Assembly: GCA_963930775.1 (NCBI GenBank)
Contig: OZ005689.1
Span: forward strand, 30,652,159 to 30,716,158
Source: Cliona cf. orientalis
Lineage: Eukaryota > Porifera > Demospongiae > Clionaida > Clionaidae
Reading direction: 5' to 3'
Length of the DNA stretch: 64,000 bases
Below, one piece after another: positions 2,617-29,512 of this stretch (position 1 is the first letter of the stretch; every line of letters begins with the position of its first letter). Position numbers and translations under genes: made by a program. Under the pieces are notes generated by a model. The model had not been told where the DNA came from and ran no database searches. It saw only the letters and a program-made list of their open reading frames with translations.

Positions 2617-3110
2617 CACGCAGCAAAAAGTAATGGGTGACCATAATCCACATTTTTGGGTTAAAACATCTGCAACTGAGGTAATCCACTTTGTGGATTA
2701 ATGTAACCCATGAAGTTAAGTTGACATAACTTTAAAATGGTTAAAGATACCTGCAACTAAGTGGTTGTAGTAACCTCCACAGTTATGTTGTTGTAATCCT
2801 CATGTTTGTGGAGCGTAGTGACTATCACAAAATGCTTACATAACCACTGAGCTTTATCATATGTACCAGAACACAGGCTTGTAGCAACCATTATACTGTA
2901 TTACGCTAACTACTTAAATCTATAAGTGTTTTAAGCCAAGGTTGTTATTGTTATCATGCAGATAAAGGTAAACGTAACCACAATGGTTACAATAATCTTA
3001 CATACAATGTCATAAAATACTTGCAAAATCAATGAAGGGAGCATGACAGCATGATTGTGAGAACACACAGAATAGGAATGAACAACTACAATTTTTAGAG
3101 TGAGTACTGT
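2617..3110. repeat. Left subterminal word array of element 1
   Basis: Variants of GTAACC/GGTTAC (GTAATCC, GTAACCC, GGTTAA, TAACCA, GCAACC) recur every 15-40 bp in both orientations, ending with a GTAACCACAATGGTTAC palindrome near 2973. There is no coding signal. The array lies between the element terminus and the 3' end of gene A1, and its words match those in the array at the other end. Confidence 0.65.
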
Positions 3111-3180
3111 CCAGTTCAATGAGCAAATGAGCTAGCCATAAACATGACAGTGATATTATTAATAGATGATACATCATGAA

Positions 3181-6100
3181 TTACATGTTACGTTTGATGT
3201 CTGAGGTTGTGGCCAAGTAAGTGCCACTTCTATTGTGGGAATCTGGATATCTGACAACAAAGTCTTGAAAAAAATAAAGTATGTTTTTGGCTTGTGAAGG
3301 ATACTCCACATGGAATACATAATAAGCAGCAAAGCCAAAAAATAGAGCATCCTGGAAACAGGGATACTCACCGAGTATCTCATTTTCAGCAATCACAAAG
3401 AACTGATACTTTGAAGGAGAGGAGATCATAACTGCTCGAGGAGCAGAATACTTCTCACGCAAAATTTCATCCATCACTGAGGTTTCCTAGTTAAGATGAT
3501 ATTATGATGATAAATTGCACAAAAGTAATCATTACATACTTACATCATATTCCTCAAAGAAATAAGAAAGATAATCTTTTCCGCCTCTCACATTAAGACA
3601 CTTGGCAAGTATTTCTAGAGCCACCTTCTGCTTGGAAATTTCATCTGTGAGTAAATTCCAGGTATCAAGTAAATGATGAGTCATTAATTAATAGTGGTGG
3701 AATAAAAACTAGTTGATGCACGGTAGCCATGGCAGACAACCACGCCTATCTCTCGGGTATTGGGTGATTATGGGTTGGCTAACATGTATCAACTATAATG
3801 TACCTACCTGCAGCATTTAGATTCTCCAGTACTTCCCTGATCGCACGTTTGGTGTTACTTTCTCCATAAGATATTATTGCTGGGATATACTTTGTACACC
3901 ATTCAGTGACAAAAGCTTGCTTGGCGTTACTTCGTCCCAGTACGAGGCCAAATTCCTGCATTGGTACAACAGACTCCAATTAATGCACACCACATACATA
4001 ATATTATAATGTTAGCATTCAATCACTATATGTCCATATGTGGATTTTGCATGCATGATACTTACCACAGCAGGAATAGTAAGGCCAGGGTAACACTCCT
4101 TTATTTCTTTCATACTTGATGCATCATTTAAGAAAACATCCTCCTTTCTCCAAACGTGCTTCTGAAGAGAGGTATGAGGACAGATTCCCTGGGTTTAGAC
4201 CGCTTTAGCTCCTCTTGGATGCCCTTCAGATGGACTTGGACACTACTGGGATCTTCAATGAGGTTAGCAGACGATACTGGATATCTCCGCAACAGTTCTT
4301 GGCCCGGATCCTTCTTACGTCTCTTTGATGGAGGCACTGAGATGGCGTCTCCGGTCCTCCTGGCTTTTCTGTTATCTGTCTTGATTACATTTCGAACACC
4401 TTCAATAAGCTTTTCTGTCCACGATGTCTACGAAGTCAACAGGAAAGCAGGGTAAATTAGTATTCAAACATTAACACTCTTGCATATCATAGCCAGCTTC
4501 CAACTGCCACAAAAGTATAATAAAATTACATAGCCACTTCCCATATCGTCTTTGGTGAAAGGATACTTCAGGATCATTTGTCTAGCAACTTTCTCACAAT
4601 CTGACCTGTCAGGCCTTGAATGCCTAGCAAATAACTGGCTTACAATGGTTCGAACCATTTCCTGGCGGGCATTTGGTGTTAATTTCTTCTTTCGTAGGCA
4701 TTCCTCAACCTCCGGACGCCAGTGATCAGGAATGATGATATCACGATTGCTAGCGCTATTAATAGAAGACGCCTCCGCCTCAGAGAAAGATGCTGACCGC
4801 TGGTCAACTGTAGATGGTGGACTTTGGCCAGGTGGTGAGTTTAACTGAGGTGGGGAGTTCAACTGAGGAGGTGAGTTTAATTGAGGAGGCGAGTTCAACT
4901 GAGATGCAGGTAATTCAGTGCAAGGAAGCTTCACCTTCAAATGAAGCATAGCAATTAAGTATAGTGAGCACAAATAAAAATACTTACAGATTGTATGAGA
5001 TACATTATCCTTTTTGTCAGTCCAATAGGTGGTAACATTTCACGGATTTCTTCTTCAGACAATTCAAATAATGCTTCACCATCAATCACAAACAGTATAT
5101 ACTCACTAAATTTACATATATCATAACAATAATTATGCATAAAAGTACATGTATCGTATTCGCCCGATCAGACGCTGCTCTCGATTAGTCGCCGCACCTC
5201 TGGATGTGCTGAACGAAATAGTCGCCGCTCTCGAATAGTAGCCGCACCACGCCTACTATTCGAGAACATCAGCACGTGGACATGCCTCACAACTTATTTT
5301 GATGGTAGGGTAGGTACACGATAAAACAGTCTAAAACAAGTTCAGCAAAGGGGCCAGAATCTCCTAGATCAGTGGTGCCAATCGACCATTTCTCTAAACA
5401 TTACCTCTCTGGCAGTTACTGGCATTAATAAACCCCGCATAAACTCGGGCGATGAAATAAATAGTAGCCGCAGCGTCTGATCGAGTTAATACGGTATATA
5501 ATTATGCAGCATAAGACATTCACCTTCAAATGTTTCACAATAGTTCAAAGGGAAACCTTCATCAGACAAGTAAGTTGAAAGTGATAATGTATCCATTTGC
5601 TTTATCCTATCTACCAGGTCACAATCAACGGGTGGAATTTCCTGTCACAAATTTAATTGATCATCAAATAGTCAAACCCAGATGTAAAAGCAAGTAGCAT
5701 GAAACATCGACTATGTATTCACAGACAGATTTCTGCCACGCCAGGGGACATCTTAACTGGCTTATACTCTATGATGGCCTTATTTTTCACCGTTGTTAAG
5801 AAGGGATAAGGAGTATAATATCAGCTGCCGAAGGTGGCAAAGAAGCATGAAACTTGTGTGCCATCGAAATGTAAAATCACGCACGGAACTGTGCATGGCC
5901 ATCCATGTATGCATTATGGCAATAACTATTTCCAATAGAAGCACACTTCTTATAATATTTGGAAAGTATTGCACTTGAATTTGTATTTCGATGGTACCCA
6001 GGCTTATGTGGTAGTTGCACACTCCTGTACCGCCTTTGGTGGCACATATGCTCCAGGTGTAGTGGAAACGGATCTCCTACAAAGAACGGACAAGGCCAAA

Positions 6101-6719
6101 GTTCAAACACAGACAACCCTCCAGTATCTTCTATGGTTGAAAATTTTCGCGGTGCCGTTCTTGCCACTTGATCCCGGATAAGGCCGTTTCCGTGAGGGGT
6201 CAGGGGTTTTGTTTCGGATAAGATTGTTTGTCAGGGTTAGTCTCCAGGGTCTGTATGGCAGGGTTAGTTTCAAGGGTTAGTCTCCAGGGTTAGTTTCGTG
6301 ACCTAAAACCCTGTCACAATAGCACACGAAAATTTGGGTGCCGTTTATGCCACTTGACCCCTTATCCGTTCTTTATAGGAGGTCCTATTCGCGTACTTTA
6401 TTTACTTTAGCAAGTATCATACTGTCGAGATTACCTTTGGAATTAGAGAGAAGACCTTTGCAAGCCCAATTGGTGGCAAAAGTTCCCGAACGTCCTTTTG
6501 TGATAGCATGACAAAAGCACCTCCATCAATGAAGCTTTCTGTAAATTAAACAAACGGTAGTTCTAAAATAAAATCGAAAGCCGTTGCCCGCCAGACAACA
6601 TGAAGGTGCGAACAACACACCGCTACGAACTCACCTTCAAATACTTTACAAAATTCATCGGGGATCCCTTTTCCTTTTAACATTGCAGATATGCCACTTA
6701 CGCTGAGTTTAACATCCAT
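3181..6719 (-). CDS. Tandem-SAM / SAMD3-like protein, gene A1 of element 1
   Basis: This is a minus-strand gene of about nine exons: 6635-6719, 6435-6538, 5524-5641, about 4988-5100, 4530-about 4936, 4066-about 4424, 3808-3955, 3544-3644 and 3181-3488. Exons 1-2 form one SAM domain (GGAFVMLSQKDVRELLPPIG). Exons 3-4 form a second (GEALFELSEEEIREMLPPIG). A linker follows with four QLNSPP repeats. The rest matches the vertebrate SAMD3-like layout, with a KYPF-x-KDDMGSGY motif, a basic KRRKK stretch and a YYVFHVEYPSQ tail. SAM domains mediate protein-protein or RNA contacts; the role of the SAMD3-like part is unknown. A 1-nt frameshift lies near 4135, and the exon 4 acceptor does not fit phase cleanly, so the copy is probably damaged. 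I chose ATG 6719; ATG 6758 is also possible. The gene faces B1 across 141 bp. Confidence 0.7.
5152..5503. mobile_element. MITE in an intron of A1
   Basis: The ends are imperfect inverted repeats: TATCGTATTCGCCCGATCAG on the left and TACCGTATTAACTCGATCAG read inward on the right, both followed by ACGCTGC. There is no coding capacity. It sits between the two exons of the second SAM domain and may explain the poor splice phase there. Confidence 0.55.
6064..6387. mobile_element. Inverted-repeat (foldback) element in an intron of A1
   Basis: The left arm contains CTACAAAGAACGGACAAGG and a downstream AAAATTTTCGCGGTGCCGTT block. Both return in inverted form at 6320-6387. The loop carries several GGGTTAGTCTCCAGGGTTAG-like direct repeats. 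No gene is visible. Confidence 0.5.
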
Positions 6720-6860
6720 TGATCTCAGAGTTGATCTAGCCTTCAAGTTAGTTTGCAAATTTGAATCGTATATACCACGTGCATGTCAGGTGCCATCAAC
6801 CACGTGTACACAGAATGCGCATGCGCATAGAAAGCAAGGTCCACCAGCAATCAGAGGTGA
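6720..6860. promoter_or_regulatory. Shared divergent promoter of A1 and B1
   Basis: The 141 bp between the A1 start codon (minus) and the B1 start codon (plus) must contain both promoters. It has two CACGTG E-box hexamers (near 6777 and 6801) and a GCGCATGCGCAT stretch. No TATA box is obvious for B1. Assignment rests on geometry. Confidence 0.5.
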
Positions 6861-7191
6861 ATGGCATCAAAGATAGCCGAAAAGAACTGCTCTATGTGCT
6901 CTTTTGAAGCACCTACGGTCAGATTGGTACTGAGTCACCTCTGTAGTGTTCATTCATATGATCCCCGATTCAATGTGATGTGTGGAATAAGTGGATGCGC
7001 CAGGACTTATCGCACATACAGTGGTCTACATTCTCACATCTACAGATGCCATTGGACAAGCACTCGAGGTATCACTAATAGTGCTGACTGTCCTAGCAAT
7101 GAAGAAGATCAAACTGAGAGTATGGATATAGATCTATCATCAGAATTATGTATCACAGGTATGTAAATGAAAGCTATTATAAATAACTTAA

Positions 7192-7640
7192 TACCGTATT
7201 TTCTCGCTATTAAGCGCATGCGCTTATATCTCCACAGGAAGAAAACCTGCGCTTATAATAACGAAGTGCGCCTAACAGCGAGATGCGCCTAACAAAAAAA
7301 ATAGCTACATCAAGAACGCATGCGCGTTCGCGGTATCATTTAAGGGGCGTGGCCAATCAATCAATCGCACGATCGTTCACGTTGCCCAGGTCGAAATGGC
7401 GTTCGTTGCTGAAAGAACATGAGAATCGACAGTAGCCATCGTAATTTCGACTAACTTGAAAAGGTTGGAGCCCTGGGCAAGCTAGCAAGCGTGCAGGTAT
7501 CGAGGTCAATGATCACATAATATCAGTATGCGCTTATGTGCGAAATACGCCTAATAAGTGCTTAGGCCAACTAAATAGCATGCGCTTAATAACGAATATG
7601 CGCTTATAAGCGAAATGCGCCTAATAACGAGAAAATACGG
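7192..7640. mobile_element. MITE in intron 1 of B1
   Basis: The termini are inverted ACCGTATTTTCTCG (left) and CGAGAAAATACGGT (right), with TA adjoining on the left. The body is rich in ATGCGCTTAT/ATAAGCGCAT words. It is non-coding and lies wholly within the intron between the zinc-finger exon and exon 2. Confidence 0.6.
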
Positions 7641-9310
7641 TTTTATTTAATAGTGATGTTTCTTTTTGTGTAGGTGATATACAGGCAGATATTGATTATC
7701 TACTAGGTGATTGTACACAACAGCAGCGCAGTAGTGCCCTATTCCTGCTAAAACTAAAGGAAGAACGAAGATTAACACAAGGAGCGATTGATGACATAGT
7801 AACTGGTATTGAAAGTGTGCTGGAAAAGTGTATAATTCGAACGAAGGCTGGTGTACGTGCCAAACTGGCTTCTGGGATTGATCCAAATGATGTATCTGGT
7901 TTAGACGATGTATTTTCTGACATGGTGAAACCCTTTGCTGGTCTAGAAACTGAATTTAAACAGAAATCTTATTTTAAAGACGTCCTTGGTCTATTGGTAA
8001 GCTGTACATCAAGTGCGTATACAGAGAAATTTTTGCCGACTAAAAATTTGCTAAGCATTGGTTTTCACTAATGCAGTTTGGTCACCATATCCTCTATGTA
8101 ATCATTAACACAGGACAAAAATATGATAAAATTTCTGCCAATGAGAGCAGGTGGAGATATTGGCAAAAACTTTCTCCTGGGAAAAAATTTCCACATGTAC
8201 AGTAATTTGCGAGATTCTGATCTTAATAATAGTATTGTTATGTACTCTCATTATAGGAACCAGAGGAGAAAAGAGTAGGAGATCCAGAGTATGTACCCAG
8301 ATTCTCTGGAGATAAGCGCGAGTTGGTGCCAAGATGGGATACATTTCAGTATGTACCTTTACTGAGTACACTTGGTAAACTTATCCAAGATCCAGATATT
8401 TTAGAACAAATAGAGGGATTTTCCCGGCGAATGTGTAGTGCTAGTTTACAGGAAGATTTCTGTGATGGAACTCTTTTCCGTGACCATCCATTGTTTACTT
8501 CTGACCCACTTGCTTTGCAAATACTTGCCTACTTTGACGAACTAGAGGTATGTAACCCTCTTGGTTCACATATTAAGAAGCACAAACTAGGAATAGTTTT
8601 TTTTACCCTTGGAAATATCCGTCCAAAATTTCGTTCATCCCTCAAAGCAATCCACCTTGTAGCCGTGGTTACCTCTCCTGTAATCGAGAAGCATGGGCTG
8701 AATAAAATCTTAGAACCATTCATAACAGATCTAAACAATCTTGCCACTACGGGTGTACAGGTGAAAGTACATGGTCGTGAGCAAATATTTCATGGTGCAC
8801 TCCTAGCGTTTTTGGCAGATAATCTTCGTAGTAATGCTCTGGGTGGTTTCAAGATGTCCTTTTCATTTGCCTATCGATATTGTCGGACTTGCCTAACGCC
8901 AAATAAAGATGCAGTCTCTTCATTTGAGTCCAAAGCATTTATAATGCGCTCCATTGATAGCCACAAGAAACACTGTGATCTCATTGATGGTGTTAATGGC
9001 AGCCACTATTCCAAAACATACGGAATTAATTACCGTTCCTGCTTGCTAGATGTTAAGTACTTCTCTTTATTCAATGGCGGCCTGCCTCATGATTGCATGC
9101 ATGATCTCTTGGAAGGGATAGGACCAAAAGAAATAAAACTACTTTTAACTCACTGTATCTCAGCAAAATACTTTACATTAGATGAGTACAATGAGGTGTT
9201 ACGTAACTTTAATTATGGGTACACTGATAATGATAAACCTGTTTCAATACTTGCTACATCTTTCGCAAAGGATGGACCTTTGCGATCTTCAGCCGGACAA
9301 ATGTTGACAA

Positions 9311-9422
9311 TGTTTAGGAATTTATCCCTTATGATAGGCAGCAAAATACCAGAGAATGATGAGTGGTGTTTAGGAATTTATCCCTTATGATAGGCAGCAA
9401 AATACCAGAGAATGATGAGTGG
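9311..9422 (+). repeat. 56-bp perfect tandem duplication inside B1
   Basis: The unit beginning TGTTTAGGAATTTATCCC occurs twice back to back (9311-9366 and 9367-9422) with no differences seen. Because 56 is not a multiple of three, it shifts the B1 frame and creates a stop at 9390. The paralogue B2 has one copy of the equivalent coding segment. Confidence 0.9.
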
Positions 9423-10432
9423 TGGTCTTGCTTCTTAATACTGAGGAAAATATTTGATATTGTAATGTGTCCAGCTCTTCCACACAGCACCTGCGCTATT
9501 CTGAAGACACTGATAATAAAACACCATAGTATGTACATTTCTCTTTATGGTCCTGGAGAGTTCATTCCTAAAATGCACTTTCTTACACATTATCCAGATC
9601 AAATGGAGCACATCGGGCCTATCGTTCGAGCTTGGACTATGCGACACGAAGCAAAATCGAATTTTTTCAAACAGGCTTCACGTGTCTCGAATTTTAAAAA
9701 TGTGGCTCAAAACGTGGCCAGAAGGCACCAACGTTGGTTATGTTACCAGTTGGCAAAATGTGACCTTCTACGTTTTTCACTCGAGTGTGGTCCTGGTGAT
9801 AACCCTTCACCATTGAGCAGTGAACCAGACAGTTTAAGTGAATCCATCCTTCGTTCCAATCCCACTCTTGATGCAAGCTCTTCCTTTTTTCGCCCGTCAT
9901 GGGTACAGTATGAAGGGGTACTATACAAGGCAAATAATTGTTTTTTTTAATTAAGGAATCGGATGGACTAGATCCAAAATTTGTTAAGCTGGAAGAAATT
10001 TTAGTGATTGGAAATTGTCTCATCACTTTTATTGTTAATGAGTGCAAGGTATTGTACTTTGATGATCATTATCATGCTTATGCTATTGAGCTTACTCCAA
10101 ATAAATCTATTTTAAATGCAGACATGTTATATGACCACAATATTTATCATGGACATAAAATTAATTCTATTGTTCATATTAGTTTAAAGTATTACTTTGT
10201 TTCATAGCTTTATCAAGTTGCTTGTATAAAACTACAGATATTTTTATTATTGAATTATGTACATACATAATAGTATTATTATAGTGGCAACTTGGTTGTA
10301 GACAATAGTAGCTGTATATGTGGCAAGGGAAGTAAATTATTAGCATGTGACCATCACATGACTATGTGTACATACACAGTGGCAAACTTGGTTGTAGCTG
10401 TACACTGACTGCACTGTGTGGCAAGGGAAGTA

Positions 10433-11101
10433 ATGGCCTGCTTGTTGCAAGATCAGGTAGTGCCCGTGGAGGGTCCTGATATGACATTCAGTGTCACACT
10501 ACATTGGGAAAGGCAGTCCTCGTGTGTTCAAGTATTCCAAGTAAGACCTGAAACAGATGAGTGGAAGGCATGTGAGGAAAAATTTATGTCAATGCCTATG
10601 AAAATCCATCACATTGTTAGAGTGCAAAACTTGTGGCTTTTGGAATTGTACCAATTCAATAAACGGAGAATGTACAAGAATGATGGCATCATTAATGAAC
10701 TAACATTATTTCATGGTACCAAAGGGAATGACCCAATGGTGATATGTGAGGGAGAAGACGGCTTTGATTTGAGGTTAAGCAAGAAAGGAAGCTGGGGTTA
10801 TGCACTATACTTTTCAGAGAACATTGTGTATGCTGATAAATTTGCTCATATAACTTCTGAAGGAAACAGAGAACTTTTGATTGCCAATGTTCTTGTCGGT
10901 GAAGCCTATGATTTTGGCACTTCACACAATCAGGAATTGAAGATGCCACCAATCAAGCAAAGGTCAAAAAAGGATTTAATAAACATAAAGTATGATAGCG
11001 TTTCTGGAATAACTAAAGATACAAGAGTATACATGATTTATGAGGCACACAAAACTTACCCAGCTTATGTAGTAAATTATCAGTACAAAACATTGTTGTA
11101 A
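10433..11101 (+). CDS. PARP catalytic-domain protein (ADP-ribosyltransferase), cargo of element 1
   Basis: This intact intronless frame encodes 222 aa from ATG 10433. It reads as a near-minimal PARP10/14-like catalytic domain: an N-terminal RVQNLWLLELYQ segment, LFHGT (His 94), WGYALYFSE (Tyr 126), LLIANVLVGEAYDFG and a C-terminal YPAYVVNY strand. In PARP1 the residue corresponding to Ala 211 is the catalytic Glu, so this enzyme would be a mono-ADP-ribosyltransferase or inactive. The family uses NAD+ to modify proteins or nucleic acids. The gene starts 226 bp after B1 and ends just before the right subterminal array, so it lies inside the transposon on the same strand as the transposase. An upstream coding exon cannot be excluded. 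A local duplication (TTGGTTGTAG...GCAAGGGAAGTAA) precedes it at 10285-10435. Confidence 0.85.
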   Translation: MACLLQDQVVPVEGPDMTFSVTLHWERQSSCVQVFQVRPETDEWKACEEKFMSMPMKIHHIVRVQNLWLLELYQFNKRRMYKNDGIINELTLFHGTKGNDPMVICEGEDGFDLRLSKKGSWGYALYFSENIVYADKFAHITSEGNRELLIANVLVGEAYDFGTSHNQELKMPPIKQRSKKDLINIKYDSVSGITKDTRVYMIYEAHKTYPAYVVNYQYKTLL

Positions 11102-11385
11102 AATTAACTATATTCTTGGTTATGATAGATTAAATCAGGTTAACATAACTACCTGAAGCTGGTTGAATTGAGTAGTGGGATAAATGGATTAGTGTAACCC
11201 TCATTATTTAGATCATGTTAACTAATATCTGGGTTGAAGTTATCTTTAATAGATAGTAGTAACCATTCAGTGTTGGTGACCAAATTGGATAACTTTAACC
11301 AAATCAATGTTGCAGTCACAAGAAATAAAATGGTTTACTATACAACAGGTAGGTAATTATAACCCCTCATTTTTTGCTGTGCGTG
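11102..11385. repeat. Right subterminal word array of element 1
   Basis: Starting at the PARP stop codon, GGTTA/TAACC-type words (GGTTATG, GGTTAAC, GGTTGAA, GTAACC, GGATAAC, TTTAACC) recur every 15-30 bp in both orientations. The array ends at the AATGAGGGGTT-side terminus. The words are those of the left array at 2617-3110. Confidence 0.65.
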
Positions 11386-16735: not shown

Positions 16736-16788
16736 TAAGTGAAAAAAGGAAACCTATTAAGTGGAAGTATTATTAGGTATTAGCTATA

Positions 16789-17508: not shown

Positions 17509-17900
17509 CACTGTAAGAAACTTTTTGTTAAATCAACAAAAAAAAATTGTTACAGCGATTAATTCTATATAACAGAATAATTGTTTGTTATTCTAACGAA
17601 GTATATTTGTTATAGTAAACAATCAATCATTGTTACAGTGACGGCTATCTATGCAATGGTAACAATTTGCCAGCGTTGTGACTACATATTAGCTGCTACT
17701 GAACTAACAGAGATCACTGTCATCTTAACACTTGATTCGTTGTAATGACCACAATTTGAATAACAGTAATAATTCATATTTTGTTGCATTTACAAATCAT
17801 TATTCTTGAATTGATCAAACTCATTGTTAATGTAACAATCACTGGTACAGGTTTTGTAAAATTACCTAATTCAATCGGCATGTTTTGTGTGTATTATGAT
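17509..17900. repeat. Left subterminal word array of element 2
   Basis: TTGTTA/TAACAA-type words (TTGTTAAA, TCAACAAA, TTGTTAC, ATAACAG, GTAACAA, TTGTGAC, TTAACAC) recur every 10-30 bp in both orientations, ending with TTGTTAATGTAACAA near 17822. The array abuts the A2 stop codon (17917). Confidence 0.7.
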
Positions 17901-17916
17901 TGTATATAAATCTGAT

Positions 17917-20900
17917 TCAGTAATCGTCCTCACTGCCTGAATTTGCGATTTCATCGTCTTCCTCCATGATATTTTCTGTGTGGTCCATTGAGTCTACTTT
18001 CTGCCTAAAGAGTGCTATTCCACTGAAATGCGTGAGGGCAGTAGGTGTTCTTTTCACGGTAGAGCTTGGTAGATCAAGAACTTTCTCTTGTAGAAAAAGT
18101 AGAACGTAGTTGATTTTGTTGTGGTATGATAAGTTGAATACGTAATGTGAGGCCATCAGATAAAACACAGCAGCAAAGATATTTGAGGTCTCCATCATTA
18201 ACTGCTGCTCAATGGCAATGAAAAATTGTGCAGCCAAATCATCGCTGCCATCGTTCACATCACAAAAGTAGACTATGTGTGGCTGACTGTTTGTCTTATC
18301 ACATGCTTCAGCAGGAGGTGTACCACGCTGTAGGAAAATGCGGCATAAAGTAAAGTTCTCAACAGCTTATTATGCAGACATAACTTACTGGAACTATCCT
18401 GAGCAAAAAGGGAATGTCCTCATCTTCATAGTGTATGTCTTTTTTGTCCTTTTTTGAAGCAAACAGCAAGAATAGACATTTCAGTGATACTTTAACACAT
18501 GTGGCTGGATAATAATGATAAAAGACAATCAGTAACAGCCTGGCCCTGCACACATGCAGGTAAACACAAGTCATTATTATAATACCATTCTCTATGTACT
18601 CTAATTATTAATATGCACAGGGATTCCCCCAGAACAGAATCCAAACCAGGTGCTTAATGATATGCATAGGATTTTAATTAAGTTATACCCTACCCATTTC
18701 TTTGATGTTTCAAACCGGGTGGCCCACCCTGATTCAGGTATACTAATACTGGGGGAAACACTGAGTCAGCAAACAATTGCCCTTTCAACTGGCTGTGGTG
18801 AAGTCATACAAACATACCTGGATGAGATTCTTCAATGCATGAGACCACCTTCTTTAGTTGAGTATTAGTTGGTTGTGTCTCCTTAGTGTAAGCAATCACT
18901 GCTCTAGCCCAATCCAGGAGCTCAGCATCAAATGACTCCCTCACATTTCTTTGCAATATCTGTGAGAACTCCTGGGACACCTATAGACCAAATCTACATA
19001 TTATCACCAAGTCTTGAGTTACAAAATTATAGCAACTCACATAGGTGACTTTCGTAAGCAGTGGATACTTGGTGATAATTTGTCTTACTGGTCCATCAGC
19101 ATTATCATGATCCTCCAAAATCCATTGACGGCGCATTGCGAATGTCCTCCGCATAAGTTCTTGCAGATGACTAGAACTCTGCCTATGAGCTGGTTTTGCT
19201 AGCTCAGAGGTCAGCATGTCGAGGTGCTTTCCAAATGATGCTTCATCATCTGCACTATCCGGAATACATGGATAAGCATGTTTGTTTTTGCTGGTAAGTT
19301 TAATGGATTTTCGACGAGCACCACCATCCTCAGATTCCTGCTTAGTGACCTCTCGGTTCACATTTTGACAGCGATTGTACAAGTACCACATCCAGGAATG
19401 CTGCAGGTGCATACGAATGTGCATGCATGTGCATGACTAGTAAAACATACAGTGTAATTGGTACCAATTGCCCAATTTGCTGGCATGGTAATTATGTGCA
19501 TATGAAAAATAATTCAGCCCAAGCATCAGAAATATATATATATAAGCAATAAATAGTATTGTCAGCACCACATTCTAACACTGTTTCTATTGTACAATAC
19601 CTCACCTGGCCTTCTCCTACACTATCCTTTAGAAATGGATATTTATCAACTACAGAATTCGCCACTGCTTTGCAATGATCCAACGATGGTCGCTGCACAT
19701 AAGTCATTAATACCGTAGCGATGGTTTGGACCATGTATCTGCGGTCAGGATCAGTTAGAACATCTTTCTCTAGATTTTTCGTTGTTGATCGTCGAAACGC
19801 AGGTATAGGAAATGGGGAAGGTAAATCATTCTGCAAGGCAAAAATATAATATAACCTCAAGCCTTAATCACAAATAAAATAACACTATGCACTCACTAAC
19901 ATGCAGTACATGATTATATAGACTCTAACATGAAAAATGTTGCAACTAAAGTTTGTATAAGTAATACTATAGCTACTGATTTCTTGCCTTATGGACTCTA
20001 ATATCCATATATTTATTGTCACGGAGGGAGAGGGGAGGGGCTATGTTGGTTAAAAGTATAGGAGGCCTATACCAGAGGGGAGTCTTGCCTTATGGACTCT
20101 AATGTCCATATATTTATTGTCATGGAGGGAGAGGGGAGGGGCTCTTGGTTAAAAGTATAGGAGGCTTATACGAGAGGGGGGGGGGGCATAAGGGGATGTA
20201 TAAACAGTGTAGTGTAGTGTATACTTTAGCTTTCCGTTTTCTTGAAACTCTAGAATTTAATGAAGATGATGTAGCTGAAAGTGTTTCAGAGGTACACAAG
20301 CTGACTACCTTTCCTATAGTACTAGTGGCCTTTTTACTGGCACTTTCACTTGGAGTTGGACTCAGAGCAGGTGCAGGAGACTTGGAGATCTGAAAAACAG
20401 AATTTCAGACAACATACTGAGCTGCTTGCATGTGGTCATGCTGTAGAGTATTCCATGTGTACATCAATTAAGGAACCTGGCTATGTCACTACATAAACTG
20501 CTAAGCCTTGTAAGGTGTACAGGTTAGCTGAACTACAGTTACACTTTGGGCAACTTGCTAAGAGTAGGTACTAATTAAATTCCTATATATGTCAACATCT
20601 AACAAGTCAAGGCAGATGCCAACCATACAATTATAACTTATACACTGCAGTACATAGGTTTATGGAACGTACTATGACTGATTTAGATATCTGACATCAT
20701 CTAATATGAGCTATTATTGAATGCACTATTTAATTTATCCTGTCATGATCACATAGTATTTGGACCTCCCACCCCCCAAACAGACCCTGGAAACTAACCC
20801 GGCTAACCATTAATACCCTGGTGCATTCTGAGAATTGTGCATGGAGATACCCAGGCGTTTGTAGACCGTGTTCCAGTAGATTTGGAACCCAGCCCCTGAC

Positions 20901-21500
20901 TTCTCTGAATATCTACTATATAGTTGATGACACGCATGGGGGTCGTTCACATTATTTCTGAAATCTAAGGGCCGGGGGATCCGAATATTTCGAAATCAGT
21001 ATATGAGCAAGCTGAGGGGAACAAAAAAGGGAGGGGGGTCAAATACTTTTATGATGACCCACCGGCTCTTTTGTGAGTACTTAGTGTACTGTCTTGGAAT
21101 AGGACTTGATAATTAGCCTTGAAGCTTTCTCCCTTAGCTACCTAGTACCTAGTACCTAGTACATCTACCATAATAGAGAAACATACTCACAGGTTCTTCC
21201 TCTTGGCAGATGGCTCGTAGAGCAGAATACACTCACAGCCGTGGTCCAGCTTTCTTGATGATATCTTTAAGACAATCAGCACCTGGGCAACTAGCCAATG
21301 CAGCACAAACTGCCTCTCCGTCCATGTCTTCATCTAGCAAACAAAACCGTATGGTTATTTAAAATTGGGTTTGAGAATAGTGCGGCTTGGTAACAGTGCC
21401 ACGTTTCAAATAGCTCACCTCGGAATTCCTGTAGTACTGCATCATCAAAACCTCGAGCTTTTAGAAGAGCACACACTTCATCGACTGTCTTATACTCCAT
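17917..21500 (-). CDS. SAM / SAMD3-like protein, gene A2 of element 2
   Basis: The minus-strand exons are 21419-21500 (start MEYKTVDEVCALL), 21191-21333, about 20310-20391, about 19612-19830, about 19036-19400, about 18822-18980, about 18390-18505 and 17917-about 18346. The first two form a single SAM domain (GFDDAVLQEF...DMDGEAVCAAL...KKAGPRL). A Pro/Ser-rich linker follows. The SAMD3-like body has VVDKYPFLKDSVGEG, HSWMWYLYNR, LMRRTFAMRRQWIL, ATCVKVSLKCLFLLF and a C-terminal YYVFHV-equivalent (SHYVFNLSYH) before an acidic tail. It matches A1 in order but has one SAM domain rather than two. An in-frame TGA at 21234-21236, inside the SAM domain, suggests damage. Partner and regulation: it shares the divergent promoter with B2. 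Confidence 0.7.
18617..18773. mobile_element. Short MITE in an intron of A2
   Basis: Ends are CAGGGATTCCCCCAG and CTGGGGGAAACACTG, imperfect inverted repeats of the kind seen in hAT-like MITEs. It is 157 bp and non-coding. Confidence 0.5.
19980..20180 (+). repeat. Tandem duplication of about 107 bp in an intron of A2
   Basis: TCTTGCCTTATGGACTCTAA begins two adjacent copies (near 19982 and 20084), each continuing through GGGAGAGGGGAGGGGCT and AAAAGTATAGGAGGC. The copies differ by a few substitutions and a small indel. Confidence 0.75.
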
Positions 21501-21715
21501 ACTAGCGAGCGATAGCTGCTGCTCACGAAGTACCTTGATTCTCGCCCGGGTGTCTCAAGCTTCCAGATAGTTAGCTAGCATGTAGCGAGCTAAACGTATC
21601 ACGCGATACGGTTTTGGCGCGCAAACTTGGCGCGCAAACTTGGCGCGGGTACCTAGCGACGGTGGTGGCTCGAGTCAGAGATTATCTCCTCCTATGCTTG
21701 AGTTTAGAGTTTAGG
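21501..21715. promoter_or_regulatory. Shared divergent promoter of A2 and B2 with E2F-like sites
   Basis: These 215 bp separate the A2 and B2 start codons. At 21612-21648 the core TTGGCGCG occurs three times, twice within TTGGCGCGCAAA. This matches the E2F/DP consensus TTTSGCGC known from animals. Surrounding sequence is GC-richer than the rest of the element and no TATA box is clear. Regulation by E2F is inferred from the motif only. Confidence 0.55.
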
Positions 21716-24700
21716 ATGGCAAGTGTATGCTACATGTGCAATTCATTTCGTTGTTCAACTAATTCCGCGTTGGTGAAGCATCTTTTCCAAGTGCACTCCT
21801 ATGAACCAATTAAACTTCATGTAGCTATGCTTGTCATGTGGAGCACTGTCCTCGCGCCTTTACATTGGGTTCTACTTATTCCTCCTTCTTAAGTCATGCT
21901 ACTCGTAAGCATCCCAATTGGAAGGAATTACTTGATCAGGCACCTCCAATCACAAGGCCTAAACTCAATCAATCTGCAAATTCTTCGGCATCCTTTCTGG
22001 AGTGCGAGAGTCAAGGTGAAATTGAAAGTGATGATGATCAGCAAGGTGACAACAATGATCCCATGGATTTCAGCACACCTGAATGGCCAACCGACAGCTC
22101 TGGTGATGGCGTTAGTGATGCTAGAAAAGCTGCAGGAAAGTTTTTGCTTGGACTAAAAGAGCGATACAGGCTATCTCAAGCAGCCGTAGACTTTACTGTG
22201 GGGGCAGTTAATCAAATTATCTCAATTGTTTATGAGGATTTGAAGAAAAATGTCACACAATCACTCAACAGCATGGGTGTAGCTATCACAGATATTGATC
22301 ATCTGTTCAATCCTGAAGACATATTTGATGGGTTAGAAACAGAGTACCAGCAAACAAAGTTTTACAAAGACCACTTTGGATTGGTGGTATGCAGCAATTG
22401 CTGATAGTATTATATATTATATTGATATGTTTGTTTGCAGGAGCCAAAAACAATCGAGCTAGGCAAGACATATACCTGGGAAAGTTTGGGTGGCAAGAGT
22501 AAGCTTGTTGAAACAAAAGACACATTTCAGTATGTGCCAATAGTTGACAGCTTATCGTCAATAATGCAGAACAAGGACATCTTTAATGAGGTACTACCAT
22601 AAATTTCGCGAATGCGGTAATGGTCGTCATTCCTCTATGCACAGAGGATACAAAAATTTTCACCAATGAGCAAAATTGCAATATCTTTCTCCTGGTGAAA
22701 ATTTCTATGTATATCATGCTACTATATGGCCAATTTTCCCCTTATCTATAGATTTTTAGACCCCATCAACGACATGACGAGCTCATTGAAGATGTTTGTG
22801 ATGGCTCTATGTTTAAGTCTCACCCCCTATTCAAGGAAGATCCTCTGGCCCTACAAATCATCGCGTATTATGATGATGTAGAGGTTTGCAATCCTCTTGG
22901 AAGCCACCGTGGTATTAATAAGTTAGGTAAGATGATTAACTTAAAGGTCAAGGAGACATTATTATTAATATTATTTTGTAGCACTTTTCTTCTTCACTCT
23001 TGGTAATATCCACCCAAAGAAACGATCTACATTAAAGTGCATCCATCTGATTGCTTGTGCCACGTATCCAGTCTTGGAAAAGTATGGATTCCAAAAAATT
23101 CTTCAACCATTTATTGATGATGCCAATAAATTATCTGAGGCAAGAATCTCGTATGCATGGTTGAATATTTATGATGTAATAATTACTTTAATTAAAGGGT
23201 GTGCATATCTCGGTGAATGGTCAAGAATTGTGTGGTGAAGGGGGCAGTTGCTTGCTTGCTCGCTGATACACAGGCAGCTCACAGTATTGGAGGGTTCAAA
23301 GTAGGGGTGGGATTCGCATTTCGAAAATGTCGTGATTGCTTAGCAACAAAGGAAATGATGTCAACCATGGTAATTTATACGAGTTATTATTGTAACATAC
23401 TTACCCCTTTTTGATTCAGTTTAACGAAAAGAATTTTGTTTTGAGAGACAAAAAGAGCTATGAGTATCACTGCTCACTTTTGGATGGACACATGTCAGAG
23501 AGTGATTCAGTAACCTATGGAATTAATTATCGGAGTCCCTTGAATGACCTTTATGGCTTTCATGTGGCAGATGGTCAATTGCCACAAGATGTTATGCATT
23601 TGCTACTTGAAGGGGTTATCCCTTATGAGCTTAAGCTCATGCTTCATGACTTCACTGCAGTTAAGAAATATTTTACGGTGGATGATCTTAACAACAGGAT
23701 ACGCTCTTTCAACTACAGCCCAGAGGAAGCAAAGGATAAACCTCCACCAATCAAAGCACATGACCTAACTGCTAGTGGAAAAATATCTATGGCTGGTATG
23801 TTGAATGTCACCTGTGTTTCAATTAATGTTATAATTAAATTTTAATTTTTAATGACACGCAGCTGTTGAGATGTGGATATTTGCTGTATTTTTGCCTTTA
23901 ATGATTGGCCATGCAATTCCTGAAGATGATGACATGTGGCAGTGTTTCCTACTTTTACTTGATATACTCAAAGTGTCGACATGTCGGACACAGTCGCCCG
24001 GTTTAGCAGGATACTTGGAAGTCCTTATTAGTGATCATCATCATTCCTTCACTTGCTGTTATCCAGGATATAGTATCACCCCAAAGCTCCACTACTGTGT
24101 CCATTTACCTTCTCAAATTATCAGGTAATTCATGTGTGTACTGCTGTCAGGATAATCACCTGAGGTTATATAAACTAATTAACACCTACTCAGCCAATAA
24201 TTAATTATTACACACTTAGTGGGGTGGGTATTCACATGCCATAATATTCATTAATTTTACAGAATGGGACCATTGACTACTACATGGTGTCTTCGCATGG
24301 AAGCAAAAAATAGCTACTTTAAGAGAGTTGCACAGATTGGCAATTTTAAGAATATTGCCTTCAGTGTTGCTAAACGTCATCAACGACTGGCTTGTGCCTA
24401 CCTTCAAAGTATAACATTCTTCTCTGAATATGAAGTTGGCCCATGTAAATACTAACGTTGTATGTTGTATGTATATTTGTATCGTGCTGCATGTGAATAC
24501 TTTTTATTATGTAGGCAAAGAACCTGTCAAATTGGCAAATGAATCAAAACATTTACAAAATGCTCTGACAGAAAAAATAGAGGGAGTATCTAGTGACAGC
24601 CTCATATACCGGCAAGCAAGATTATTTTTTATTATGATAGTCATTACTAACTGACTACTCTTACAGACCCAGCTGGTTACAGCATGAAGGAAACATGTAT

Positions 24701-24955
24701 CGATTGGCCATGTTTATACTAACAGGATGGCAAGATGATGACTTACCTCAGTTTAGTGAAATTAAGGATATCCTTATCACAAATTCCACACATTATTTGT
24801 TAGTGAGAATTTACACGACAATAGGAATTCATCGACACTTCCATAGTTACATAATTAAGGGAACTAATACAGAAGACATTCTACCATTGAATAAATTACA
24901 GGGATATCCTCCAATGGTTGGACGTTCTATAAACAGACAATATACATCACACTAA
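21716..24955 (+). pseudogene. CACTA (Tnp2-like) transposase gene B2 of element 2, frameshifted
   Basis: The start ATG is 21716. Exons are 21716-22386, 22441-22590, 22753-22926, 22982-23139, about 23199-23369, 23420-23795, about 23863-24124, 24263-about 24444, about 24515-24613 and about 24667-24955. The layout is that of B1: two zinc fingers (CYMCNSFRCS...H; CHVEHCPRAF...H), KFLLGLKERYRLSQAAVDF, LADTQ...GGFK...CRDCL, YGINYRSPLND...LPQDVMHLLLEG and RMEAKNSYFK. The same Asp, Asp, Glu triad is kept. Frameshifts lie between the zinc fingers (near 21815) and near 23225. Two introns appear to use GC donors (after 23139 and after about 24613). B2 has introns throughout the core where B1 has none. 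The gene pairs head to head with A2. Confidence 0.75.
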
Positions 24956-25007
24956 GAAGTCATGTCATAAAATCTTGAACATTGTACATCCTGTATTATT
25001 ATATAAT

Positions 25008-25385
25008 ACAAGTATAAAAACAATTGAATAAAATTGAAGAATGAAGTAGGGATGGCAGGATCAAAAAGTACACAAACAAGAGATAATTGCATCTACTATA
25101 CATCCCTACGCTTACTTTTCTCGACTACTGTGCACCTATTAATCATGGTTGATGTGTTTGTTGAGTGCAATATGTGGGAAACATTCGTGCAGGTTGTTCC
25201 CTAGTTGTCACGATGGTTCGAGTTTATCAGTTTTGATTCAATTGCATTACTACTGGTCATATTTGCACCCCTCAAAAAGCAAGCGTAGGGATGTATAGTA
25301 GATGCAATTATCTCTTGTTTGTGTACTTTTTGATCCTGCCATCCCTACTTCATTCTTCAATTTTATTCAATTGTTTTATACTTGT
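25008..25385. mobile_element. Foldback element with about 107-bp near-perfect arms
   Basis: Arms 25008-25119 and 25273-25385 are near-identical inverted copies, beginning ACAAGTATAAAAACAATTG and containing TAGGGATGGCAGGATCAAAA. The 150-bp loop is non-coding. It starts 53 bp after the B2 stop codon and may form part of its 3' UTR. Confidence 0.8.
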
Positions 25386-25669
25386 TTCTGTTCTTTTTTA
25401 TTGCACTTAGTGAAATTTATCAATGTCATCTTACATGGTTTGCTCACTATTTCTGATTAAGTGGAAGATGGGAGGTGCATAAAATTCTTTGCCACGCCCC
25501 TCATTAACTTGCGTTCATAATTATTATGACAATGAACAGGATGACCAAGAAGGCTCAGTGCTTTAGGTGGCCCAAGTAGTGATGAGACTTAACGCTTATG
25601 GAGAAAACGAAGTTATAAATTTTACTGTCGGCAGCAGCTAGCTACCCGGCATAATTTGTACGTTGTTAA

Positions 25670-27077
25670 GGTACCATTAAATTGCGTGGGCGTGAGGTGG
25701 GGATATGACACCTAAACCACATCAAAGTCATTAGTGAGGTGCATGTTGTGTAACCACGCCCTTTTAATTGCACAGGTCTCAGGGGTGTGGCTGCTAGAGC
25801 CGGAAGTGTTCATTTAATATCCTCCATGGACCGGAAGCCGAGCCGGAAGGGAGGGGCCAGGCCACGCCCAAAACAGCCCCACCCTCTTCCCCAAGGACCA
25901 CCATTCTCAATCAAGTGCCTACTAACCACCGGATGTCCACCGGAAGCCCACAATCAATCCCAATTAAAACACACAGCTTCCTCAAGGCCAAAACACACAC
26001 AAACACTTGGAGGCCGTTCTGCCACACCGCCCACACAAGAGCTCACCTCATTTCCTGTGTGGGCGGAGTGACAACACATCATCGCAACCACATCCGCTTC
26101 AAACCATCGTCAGCTTCCGTCCAGCCGTACAGGCCCCTCGATCGCACCGCCGTACAGTGCCTCATTAACAGACATGGCCTCACCTTTGACCTCCTGCCAC
26201 ACCCCCAAAGCCTCCTGGACGGGTTCAAAGGTCACCACCGCATCCGGGACACGCCCACCTATCGCCGCAGCCAAGTCCCCGGCCCCGATGTCCAAGCACT
26301 GGCCCGTGAAGCCACGCCCAATCGGAAGCAATAAAACCTGCATTAACGCACACGCACACACTCCACACAGTGCCAGGAACACGCCCACATGCTTAATTAG
26401 GCCTAATTAGCTTTTTTTTTTTTTTTTTTTTTTTTTCAAGCTAGCGTGCACACTAAGCAGAAAAAAAAATTGTCCAGAAAATCACATAATACACCTAGGA
26501 TGCACAGTAGAGCCATACAAAGCAAGTAAACAATCTATACTCCAATTTTGAGAAATTTTCTAAATAACGCACACCACGGGTATTCCCCGTTTTTCACGTA
26601 GCGCGTGGGCGGAAAACATTGCAAACGCATGGCTTCCCTATACAAACATATGGGAAAAGTTTAAAGGGCCGTAACTTTAATTCTAAGGCGTGAATCAAAA
26701 TTCCTAAAGGTCAAATCTCTAGATTTAATCCATTCTGCGTGCCCGTACAAAAATTATGTCCCCAAGTGCTCCCAATTCCCCCCTGAATTAATTATTTAAA
26801 ATATTGTTTTTTTTCTACTTAGTGTGTAATTAAGTCGTTGCGGTTAATAGTTAAGCAAGAATGCTTTGATCTTGCTTTGATGTGGGCAATTACCGGCCTT
26901 TTCTTCAGGGGCCACTTCCGGTCGCTAATTATACGCGCATAATCATCCCTGGCCGATTCTGGACACGCCCACCTTCGACCAAAAGCACTCGTATGGCCTC
27001 TTCGGCCACGCCCCTTCACGATGCGCTAATTGAATAAGCCATTCCTGACGCTCACGCCCACGCAATTAAATGGTACC
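25670..27077. mobile_element. TTAA-target DNA element, copy 1
   Basis: TTAA flanks both ends (25666-25669, 27078-27081). The termini are inverted GGTACCATTAAATTGCGTGG, continuing GCGTGAG, with one mismatch. TTAA targets are typical of piggyBac and Kolobok; the GGTACC start is not the CCC of most piggyBacs. Two frames survive in both copies of this element: a short one beginning near 27019 (GRRGHTSAFGRRWACPES) and overlapping frames at 25915-26334 (+) and 26110-26388 (-). It carries a nested MITE (26449-26826). The second copy is at 41178-42176, reversed. Confidence 0.75.
26449..26826. mobile_element. MITE nested in TTAA-element copy 1
   Basis: Ends are inverted CACACTAAGCAGAAAAAAAA and CACACTAAGTAGAAAAAAAA (read inward). 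The other copy of the host element lacks this 378-bp segment, with only a poly-A tract at the site, which confirms insertion. CACTA-like termini suggest a non-autonomous relative. Confidence 0.7.
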
Positions 27078-27081
27078 TTAA

Positions 27082-27856
27082 AATACCGCTGCTCGAGCCT
27101 TGCGCCTTCGTATCGCGATGGTATGATATCTATGATCGATCCAGCATAGCACTAGCGCTGCAAGCGCTAGCGAGTAGCTCGCTTATATGCCTAGCGCCTT
27201 ACCACTCCTCGAGCCTTGAACCTTCATATCCATGATCAGTCCAGCGCGCCGTTGCACGAGCTAGCGATGTACGAGCTAGTATCGCAGCTCGCCTAGGCGC
27301 TAGGGCCAGGCGCTGTCACATGACTTCACCATGGCAACATATTCCGAGCATGCGCATTATATCATAAAAATGGCGTATCAGACACACCCATTCGATAATG
27401 CGTCGTACACGCCCACTATTACGTCCTATCGAGATAACGACTAACTAGCGTGCCACTGCACTGCGCGCTACAAAATAGAGTGGATTTATACTCAAAGTAA
27501 GATGAGCGGTGGAGGCAGTCTTGAGCTAGCCCAAGAAACTAGAAAGAAAGAAAGAAGAAAGAAAGAATGAGAAATGGCCTATTTTTTTAACATCTGGTTC
27601 TGACGTGTACAACTGTTTTGATGAATGTTCTTGGTCTTGTTAGATGCACAATTTGCTGGAGATTCTGTTTTTCACACTTAGAAATTTCACAAAATTACCG
27701 ATTTTGAGATATTTGGGTATTTGTAATGTATTACATATATGGCATATCCGGGCCATCCCTACTTATAGAGTCTACCGATTCTATGATTATGCTACATAAA
27801 GGTCAAGGGTCATGCATATAATCAATAATTATTGTTGGTGAGCTTGAATTAGAAAG
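27082..27856. other. GC-rich non-coding stretch with short inverted words, promoter-like
   Basis: 27090-27340 repeats GCTCGAGCCTT, CTAGCG, GAGCTAGC and GCGCTAG words in both orientations. A short frame starts at ATG 27502 (MSGGGSLELAQETRKKE, 22 codons) and ends in a GAAA-rich run. It precedes the small gene at 27857. No known element ends were found. Confidence 0.35.
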
Positions 27857-28129
27857 ATGGCAGATAACCAGAATTGGGAAGAATCGATGTCAGAGCAGGA
27901 CAATGATGATAGCATGGATGGCACCTTTGGAGTTATTAATGGTGTATTCATTAGAAAAGTTCCAATGACATTGGTTGTGTACCCCGAAATTGTAGATCAA
28001 ATTAAACAACTTATTCGTGCTTTGGAACATGTATACGAATTGGGAGTTAGAAGGGGGATGATTATGAAGGAAAATGCAGCCTCCTCCAATATCAGTACGT
28101 ATTCAACATCCAACAACGACAACATCTGA
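27857..28129 (+). CDS. Small hypothetical protein, 90 aa
   Basis: ATG 27857 sits in a good context and opens a 90-codon frame ending at TGA. The N-terminus is acidic and Asn/Gln-rich (DNQNWEESMSEQDNDDSMDG). A predicted helical segment follows (VVYPEIVDQIKQLIRALEHVYELGV), then a Ser/Asn-rich tail. I recognise no family. It lies inside element 2 between two nested insertions and may be either a passenger gene or part of one of them. There is no homologue elsewhere in the window. Confidence 0.35.
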   Translation: MADNQNWEESMSEQDNDDSMDGTFGVINGVFIRKVPMTLVVYPEIVDQIKQLIRALEHVYELGVRRGMIMKENAASSNISTYSTSNNDNI

Positions 28130-28387
28130 AATCCTGAATCATGAACAATGGCTATGTACTGCCTAGGATTTGAACCATGGTATGACTTAATTTTCTCAAT
28201 CATAATTGTAGCTAGCTACACTCATCACACAGCAACTATTATTATGCGTGTACTTGATCATAACAATCATTATTATGCTGCCTACTTAGTATGTATATAT
28301 ATTATGTTCATGGTTCTTTCTATCCAACCAGGGCAGGAATCGCAAGAAACTATGCTAGATTCACAACTTCTCAGTTTTGACTGCCAA

Positions 28388-28428
28388 CAAGTTTCGATCA
28401 CCATATCGCGATCTTCGTCAGGGCAAAT
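28388..28428 (-). ncRNA. Hammerhead-ribozyme-like motif, left arm
   Basis: On the minus strand CTGACGA, a 6-bp stem GATCGC/GGTGATC (one G-T pair) and GAAAC occur in hammerhead order. An extra A after CTGACGA departs from the strict core. Penelope-like elements are known to carry hammerheads in their terminal copies. Confidence 0.4.
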
Positions 28429-28492
28429 ACATGCACAATACACAATGTACTAAAATCAGTTCTTAAATAGTCACTGTCCGCGAGGGGTGTGG

Positions 28493-28864
28493 CTACGGTG
28501 GGGCGTCGGCCTGGGTGGTGGTGGCCGTAGCGTGTGACGTCCGACGCGTCCGGAGGGTGGGCGTCGGTCTTCTGATGTTTGGGGGCGGGGTTGATGGGGG
28601 GTGTGGTCTTCGACGTTGAGGTCCTCGGCCCTCTATCGCCTCTCGTCCTCTCCGGTGGCCGCCTTTCTCGGAGTTCTTTATAGCGTTTAGCCATAGGGGG
28701 GATAGATCTTTGCCCTCGTCCCTGTTCATCTGGCATCCAGGAGGGGCAAGCTTGATGTATAGGGCCTCTTTCGTTTGTCGTTCTCTTAGGTCACTGGCTG
28801 TGTCTAGGATCGTGACCTGATCCCATTCTATGATGTGTCCATCCTTCCATGCATGTTCAGCCAC
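28493..28864 (-). pseudogene. Penelope-like GIY-YIG endonuclease C-terminal fragment
   Basis: The minus-strand frame starts AEHAWKDGHIIEWDQVTILD and continues to NREEG-like MNRDEGKDLSPLWLNAIK. This is the tail of GIY-YIG endonuclease domains attached to Penelope-type reverse transcriptases. The following Arg/Pro/Thr-rich stretch is also read from the opposite arm (28849-29070, +), because the arms are inverted copies. No reverse transcriptase is present, so this is a 5'-truncated remnant. Confidence 0.55.
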
Positions 28865-29134
28865 CGCCGATTTCCCCTATGGCTAAACGCTATAAAGAAC
28901 TCCGAGAAAGGCGGCCACCGGAGAGGACGAGAGGCGATAGAGGGTCAACGTTGAAGACCACACCCCCCATCAACCCTGCCCCAAACATCAGAAGACCGAC
29001 GCCCACCCTCCGGACGCGTCGGACGTCACACGCTACGGCCACCACCACCCAGGCCGACGCCCCACCGTAGCCACACCCCTCGCGGACAGTGACTATTTAA
29101 GAACTGATTTTAGTACATTGTGTATTGTGCATGT

Positions 29135-29180
29135 ATTTGCCCTGACGAAGATCGCGATACGGCGATCGAAACTTGTTGGC
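29135..29180 (+). ncRNA. Hammerhead-ribozyme-like motif, right arm
   Basis: CTGACGA (29142-29148), stem GATCGC/GCGATC (29150-29155 with 29162-29167) and GAAA (29168-29171) follow hammerhead order. The stem is kept in the opposite arm despite base changes. One additional A lies between the core and the stem. Activity is not shown. Confidence 0.4.
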
Positions 29181-29274
29181 AGTCAAAACTGAGAAGTTGT
29201 GAATCTAGCATAGTTTCTTGCGATTCCTGCCCTGGTTGGATAGAAAGAACCATGAACATAATGTTAAACAACCA

Positions 29275-29512
29275 ACCAAGAACCTCACTTAGAAATTACC
29301 GATATTGATATCTTACAAAATTATGTTTGTACTTTTGACAAATCATTGTTAACATAACATATATGAATGCTGATATTACTGATAAGATACGTTTCTTTGA
29401 CAAGTAGTATGTTACTTCAAAGTTCCATTGTGACACTAACAGAAGGTATGTGTGTATAACAGATTGTTATGGCGACAAATTATGTTATATTAACAAATGC
29501 ATATTTACAGTG
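29275..29512. repeat. Right subterminal word array of element 2
   Basis: TTGTTA/TAACAA-type words recur in both orientations (TTGACAA, TTGTTAACATAACA, TGTTAC, CTAACAG, ATAACAG, TTGTTATGGCGACAA, TTAACAAA), ending in TTTACAGTG. They match the left array at 17509-17900. Confidence 0.7.

Follow-up and report, generated by a model that had tools for sequence, protein, structure and literature searches.

Two-gene elements at the locus

The window analysed here is a 64,000-nucleotide stretch of the genome of the sponge Cliona cf. orientalis (contig OZ005689.1, called C1 below, positions 30652159-30716158). It holds two CACTA-like transposable elements, at about 2619-11381 and 17509-29512, and in each of them gene A, on the minus strand and coding for a SAM-domain protein, and gene B, on the plus strand and coding for a putative tnp2-like DDE transposase, stand head to head, as a sequence-only reading of the window had proposed. 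The genes are homologous pair by pair yet strongly diverged, which that reading had also recognized: A1 and A2 are identical at 109 of 423 aligned positions (26%, E=2e-20), and for B1 and B2 the identity is 43% across the 414 gap-free columns of an alignment of five lineages. The pairing analysis, the copies and the motif searches described below all refer to this one sponge genome (216.8 Mb searched, in 149 contigs).

Element 1 spans 2619-11381 (8763 bp), with the terminal inverted repeats CGCAGCAAAAAGT and CACAGCAAAAAAT and the flanks CA and CG. Its ends had been placed at 2617 and 11385, and we replaced these positions after comparison with related copies (L007/L008 and L009). The ends of element 1 align at CGCAGCAAAAAG and CACAGCAAAAAAT. 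The terminus in related copies is CACAGCAAAAA, which the relative at C3:7.713 Mb (L007; C3:7.7 Mb below) shows at both ends, and a short copy of 1430 bp at C1:37.046 Mb (L009) shows CACAGCAAAAAGT at both ends with TG/TG alongside. Because of the termini in these two copies, 2619 and 11381 are the more likely ends of element 1. With them the target duplication reads CA versus CG, which differ by one transition, and with 2617 and 11385 it reads CA/CA.

Gene A1 (3181-6719, minus strand) has about ten exons and encodes two SAM domains, the second found by Pfam and the first by eye, followed by a KYPFxKD middle domain, a basic stretch and a C-terminal YYVFHxxY domain; its frame is broken near 4180. 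Gene B1 (6861-10204, plus strand, 3' end approximate) encodes N-terminal C2H2 zinc fingers, seen by eye, and a putative tnp2-like DDE transposase. Two breaks interrupt the B1 frame, one caused by a tandem duplication of about 56 bp near 9363 and the other near 9945. Element 2 (17509-29512, 12004 bp) has the terminal inverted repeat CACTGTAA and TA/TA flanks. Gene A2 (17917-21500, minus strand) encodes one SAM-like domain by eye, a KYPFLKD domain and a C-terminal HYVFNLxY domain, and gene B2 (21716-24955, plus strand), with about ten exons, encodes a zinc finger recognized by eye and a putative DDE transposase, with a frame break near 21820. Both window copies are thus decayed, with broken frames in A1, B1 and B2.

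The start codons of A and B are separated by 141 bp in element 1 (6720-6860, between 6719 and 6861) and by 215 bp in element 2 (21501-21715, between 21500 and 21716), by 163 bp in copy a (C1:1.009 Mb) and by 267 bp in the copy at C3:4.25 Mb, and each pair faces away from this space. These distances are arithmetic on the reading frames with presumed start codons. The space in element 1 would act as a shared promoter. The position of A is the same in all six copies read through both genes, namely elements 1 and 2, the copies at C3:7.7 Mb and C3:4.25 Mb, copy a and copy b (C1:15.499 Mb).

The proteins encoded by B and A

The sequence of B identifies it as a probable CACTA-type DDE transposase. 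In the B protein of the C3:4.25 Mb copy, Pfam gives Transposase_21 (E=8.8e-6, 25.5 bits, cut-off 28.6), DUF4218 (4.7e-5, also below the cut-off) and Plavaka (0.003); Transposase_21 also matches B of copy a (8.7e-5) and B1 (0.003-0.008, with 0.0032 for one exon open reading frame). The B alignment contains, in this order, the motifs FDEVE (FDExE)..NPLG, FLADN.A..GGFK, CRTC, PK.H...HYP and WTMRHEAK. With residues assigned by motif, they fit the order D, D, C(2)C, H(3-4)H, E of the CMCT clade. Sequence searches of the PDB with B returned no matches.

Protein A is a SAM-domain protein. SAM_3 is found in A of the C3:4.25 Mb copy at 6.3e-5, above the Pfam cut-off, and SAM_1 in A1 at E=0.001, under the curated cut-off; Pfam gives no SAM match in A2 or in A of copy a. 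Downstream of the SAM region, the A genes read have in common the KYPFxKD block and a C-terminal block resembling YVF[HN]xxY. A sequence search of the PDB with A1 returned no match. A presumably resembles SAMD3, in which a SAM domain is followed by a KYPF.KD-type domain.

Genome-wide pairing of A and B

The motifs used for the genome-wide search were built from A and B genes already in hand, and elements 1 and 2, the C3:4.25 Mb and C3:7.7 Mb copies and a copy on C4 were known before the KYPFxKD search. The B motif, with at most one mismatch, has 38 sites in the genome and none in the reversed control, and an exact match to the A motif KYPFxKD occurs at 11 sites. A genes standing mostly alone, with neither B nor termini, is not the pattern found in this genome: at 9 of the 11 exact KYPFxKD sites, a B-motif site in divergent orientation lies no more than 15 kb away. 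Counted as pairs, 10 are divergent (two B sites share one A site) versus 0.014 expected by chance, and the one convergent pair comes from the two neighbouring elements of the window. Among the A sites that were new to this search, five of six are paired with B.

A second A motif was drawn from elements 1 and 2, the C3:4.25 Mb copy and copy a. This motif is weak, with 463 sites versus 543 in the reversed control, and 92 of the 463 sites were used; eight sites with one mismatch, all on C2, where there is no B site, were dropped, and the one-mismatch sites are complete for C1 only. It yields at least 16 divergent, at least two convergent and at least one tandem pair with B, and 13 of the 16 divergent pairs lie on C1, where 0.43 are expected. 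By either motif, a divergent A stands beside at least 19 of the 38 B sites (at least 15 of 27 on C1). Reading 900 bp at each of four further A sites next to B showed that all four encode A at the protein level, one with a stop inside the match. In the pair at 31.19 Mb, A and B are 13 kb apart, and an insertion seems to split B, whose matches fall at two positions some 9 kb from each other. One A site without B, C4:2834340, has a broken PARP piece alongside A and therefore looks like an element that has lost B.

Ends, target duplications and movement

The A-B unit moves as one piece, has done so recently and leaves 2-bp target duplications. Copies a and b differ by 95 mismatches and 115 gap columns in an alignment of 8853 columns (97.6% identity), lie within unrelated flanks and have sharp ends: CA|CACTGTAAAAAG..TTTTTCTGTG|CA in copy a and TA|CACTGTAAAAAG..TTTTTCTGTG|TA in copy b. 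Each of the two holds A, a B main exon open for more than 630 codons and WD40-type frames on the minus strand. In copy a, seven A exons are open and all six junctions permit an in-frame GT-AG intron. On C14 there is a third copy, matching at 97-98% across the B main exon and cargo, the stretch used for the search. In a second set, at C5:3.599, C7:6.396 and C1:14.929 Mb, A is 97% identical over about 890 bp and the B motif lies 5.05-5.09 kb away in each. The A gene at C1:23.738 Mb has a 98% copy at C4:4.385 Mb, with no B-motif site nearby. A DNA search of the genome with 17509-25000 found, among the best 40 of 454 candidates, none besides element 2 itself that spans element 2.

Eleven of the 12 ends of six elements start with CAC, the left end of element 1 being CGC; the ends of the C3:4.25 Mb copy were not found. 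Unambiguous 2-bp target duplications are present in four of the six (TA for element 2, CA for copy a, TA for copy b and TG for L009), and those of the C3:7.7 Mb relative (AT inside a TA repeat) and of element 1 (CA/CG) are ambiguous.

In a wholly different account, A and B would be host genes transcribed from one bidirectional promoter and multiplied by ordinary segmental duplication. Head-to-head order is indeed common among host genes, but the copies lie on several contigs and end sharply at inverted termini with exact 2-bp duplications (CA/CA, TA/TA, TG/TG), a short non-coding copy has the same termini, and B has tnp2/DUF4218 matches. We rejected host segmental duplication, whose probability is close to nil, on the unrelated flanks, the sharp termini and the target duplications.

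TAAC/GTTA words are concentrated inside the ends of several elements. Element 1 has 9 words in its left subterminal region (2619-2918) and 13 in its right one (11082-11381), versus an interior mean of 2.25 and a maximum of 5 per 300 bp; element 2 has 11 (17509-17808) and 10 (29213-29512), versus an interior mean of 1.82 and a maximum of 6; and the C3:7.7 Mb relative has 12 and 10, versus 2.05 and 10. The first and last 300 bp of the short copy L009 hold 15 and 10 words. Interior windows as rich as the ends number 0 of 315 in element 1, 0 of 445 in element 2 and 1 of 316 in the C3:7.7 Mb relative.

The variable slot behind B

Behind B lies a slot whose content varies, with a PARP gene in element 1 and in the C3:7.7 Mb relative and WD40 frames in the lineage of copies a and b. 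In element 1, this third gene, missing from the sequence-only reading, is an open reading frame for a PARP15/12/14-like mono-ADP-ribosyltransferase (10409-11101, plus strand; Pfam PARP, E=7.1e-10), and its closest relatives among solved structures are PARP15 (6e-21), PARP12 and PARP14. The PARP relative at C3:7.7 Mb is open and 62% identical over 182 aa to that of element 1, and further PARP pieces occur at C1:35.88 and C1:21.50 Mb. The WD40 frames of copy a match Pfam WD40 at 4e-7 when the pieces are joined, and near the copy at 31.18 Mb lies a weak match to the WD40 part of copies a and b.

Two observations on individual copies may be added. The segment C1:36243586-36245434 matches the WD40 cargo end of copy a alone at 98%, without the B main exon, and may be a deleted copy or a source of the cargo. 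In the C3:7.7 Mb copy, the first B exons are inverted and lie between A and the remaining B (L007:7435-8137).

Selection on A and its co-inheritance with B

Both A and B are under purifying selection between copies a and b. In A, 13 silent and 6 replacement differences are found in 506 codons (binomial p=3e-5), and in B, 9 silent and 5 replacement differences are found in 845 codons (p=8e-4), with zero stops in the A and B codons compared. The WD40 frames, with 2 silent and 4 replacement differences in 264 codons (p=0.37), are uninformative. Between element 1 and the C3:7.7 Mb relative, where silent sites are near or at saturation, the proportions of replacement (pN) and silent (pS) differences are 0.25 and 0.74 for A, 0.21 and 0.83 for B, and 0.23 and 0.84 for PARP. 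Across five lineages, the identity of A (0.26-0.66, 226 columns) is correlated with that of B (0.39-0.69, 414 columns) at r=0.963, a value as high being reached by one of 120 permutations, which is the identity itself.

These results bear on whether A could be a host gene that was captured once and is carried as a passenger without use to the element. The other host-type genes in the elements would suit such a passenger, as would the spliced, multi-domain and host-like make-up of A, but selection acts on A in the comparison of copies a and b and in that of element 1 with the C3:7.7 Mb relative, and the identity of A falls to its lowest value in step with B. We rejected the passenger explanation on the selection on A and the co-divergence of A and B, and regard it as very improbable. 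The pairing, the joint movement, the selection and the correlation between A and B together indicate that A is a maintained second transposon gene and not a chance neighbour.

The role of A in the element

We favour, with good though not complete confidence, the explanation that these elements are CACTA/EnSpm-type transposons with a two-gene core, in which A is a kept SAM-domain second gene that works in transposition. In this scheme, B would be the DDE transposase, with N-terminal C2H2 fingers and an RNase-H-like core carrying D, D, a zinc site of C(2)C and H(3)H, and the final E, and A would be read in the opposite direction from the same short intergenic region. The A-B unit and the TAAC-core repeats inside the ends move together, leaving 2-bp target duplications. 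In the most likely mode of action, A would self-associate through its SAM domain and so gather the transposase and both repeat-rich ends, a role that we liken to that of TNPA in plant Spm. End binding, assembly and anti-silencing are candidate functions of A itself. Of the interpretation given by the sequence-only reading, the observations bear out a single mobile unit in which a probable CACTA-type transposase and a conserved, head-to-head second gene lie between CA..TG ends, with 2-bp duplications at the target, and its casting of A as the end-binding or assembly component went further than the observations do.

Several results weigh against this explanation. For the identity of B, every Pfam transposase match is under the curated cut-off and B2 has none, and the predicted structure of B is poor (predicted local distance difference test, 44) and lends no structural support. 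B has its own zinc fingers, seen by eye, which could bind the repeats, so A need not bind DNA. The reversed control of KYPFxKD gives 11 sites, the same number as the search, and therefore only position beside B discriminates. An A-motif site at C2:1661839 has no B, and the sequence there could not be read. In copy b, 5 bp are missing towards the end of the first of the compared B exons, which shifts the B frame unless the gap is intronic. Copies a and b have 8 TAAC/GTTA words at the left end and 4 at the right, and 28 of 316 and 40 of 317 interior windows reach 4; with only 4 words, the right end is therefore not special, and the excess is confined to the left. Finally, among the sites listed, 19 of the 38 B sites have no A by either motif. 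Decay and divergence may account for these 19 sites, and so may elements without A.

The last point also matters for the alternative that A is a core transposon gene acting outside the transposition complex, where it would counter silencing, control the shared promoter or aid persistence, as PARP and WD40 may. Chromatin regulators often contain SAM domains, other host-type genes are indeed carried by the elements, and selection and co-inheritance fit an indirect role and an assembly role alike. The PARP and WD40 genes vary by lineage, and a cargo gene with a role in silencing should be exchanged likewise, but A is in the same place in all six copies read through; this argument from constancy is weakened by the B sites at which A was not detected. 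On balance, we consider an indirect role unlikely, though well worth weighing, and retain direct participation of A in transposition as the preferred explanation.

Other features of the window

Further sequences lie within the two elements. A B1 intron contains an unrelated high-copy short element (7189-7645), whose full-length matches are 92-97% identical among the best 40 of 1074 candidates. A short repeat in an A2 intron (about 18602-18772) makes up the majority of the 44 matches listed for the best 40 of 454 candidates in the search with element 2. The right third of element 2 contains inverted repeats and other inserts. There, 28301-29262 has inverted repeat arms of 300 nt (97%) and 71 nt (100%), with frames that we take to resemble a Penelope-like GIY-YIG piece, and a short acidic frame starting MADNQNWEES (27848-28126, plus strand) is possibly a further gene of the element.

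Between the two elements, integrase-type frames at 12528-13003 (minus strand; Pfam rva_4, E=3.2e-18, joined pieces) probably belong to another DNA transposon. An inverted pair of protein-kinase genes flanks element 1 (1224-2517 and 14585-15956), with arms 77-92% complementary, and the right copy matches Pkinase at 5e-9. Three tRNA-Glu genes are evenly spaced by 288 bp at 62558-63206 (minus strand).

Relation to known elements and implications

Animal CACTA elements are already known, and what would be new here is the divergent SAM-domain second gene. Plant CACTA/EnSpm elements (Spm/En, Tam1, Tgmt*) are alike in their CACTA ends and the repeats inside the ends, and their tnp2-type transposase has a putative counterpart in B. 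According to the part of PMC2613891 available to us, plant Spm requires a second protein, TNPA recognizes the subterminal repeats, both proteins are spliced from one overlapping unit, and the target duplication of Tgmt* is 3 bp. The sponge elements differ from Spm/En in that A has exons of its own, on the strand opposite to B, encodes a SAM protein and accompanies a 2-bp duplication; that part of the paper names no SAM domain for Spm.

The animal TRC elements SmTRC1 and Spongebob are alike as animal members of the CACTA superfamily. In the sections available, SmTRC1 is described with a Transposase_21 domain and several proteins made by alternative splicing (PMC1636069) and Spongebob with 2-bp duplications (PMC4298943). 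TRC termini start with CCC according to the same sections (PMC1636069, PMC4298943), unlike the CAC found here, and the terms 'SAM domain' and 'sterile alpha' are absent from the SmTRC1 paper (PMC1636069). For the CMCT clade, the available portion of PMC12730594 places C(2)C and H(3-4)H after the second D and before the last E and gives mostly CA..TG ends, duplications of 2-5 bp and TET/JBP cargo genes in several lineages. The elements here are unlike that clade as described in this portion, which mentions neither a SAM partner nor PARP or WD40 cargo. Our literature search found no SAM partner of CACTA/EnSpm elements within a scope that left out most subscription journals and probably Repbase Reports, so that an earlier description is possible, and it found no paper naming an equivalent of the second protein for animal CACTA elements. 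Among the papers on SAMD3 that it covered, none concerned transposons, judging from titles and the opening of the abstracts.

The variation between PARP and WD40 genes suggests that host regulators, too, are acquired by the element. A is a conserved candidate for the second protein of animal CACTA elements, kept by selection alongside the transposase over a long history of divergence, and the A-B pair offers a direct test of how CACTA ends come together. It is also conceivable, as an idea that we hold tentatively and somewhat short of even confidence, that the animal SAMD3-like family, for whose members in sponges, cnidarians and fish the sequence-only reading had suggested a transposon origin, and with it vertebrate SAMD3, consists of second genes, free-living or domesticated, from an ancient CACTA lineage of animals in which a SAM polymer would organize the transposition complex, which would give the animal SAMD3-like genes a testable origin.

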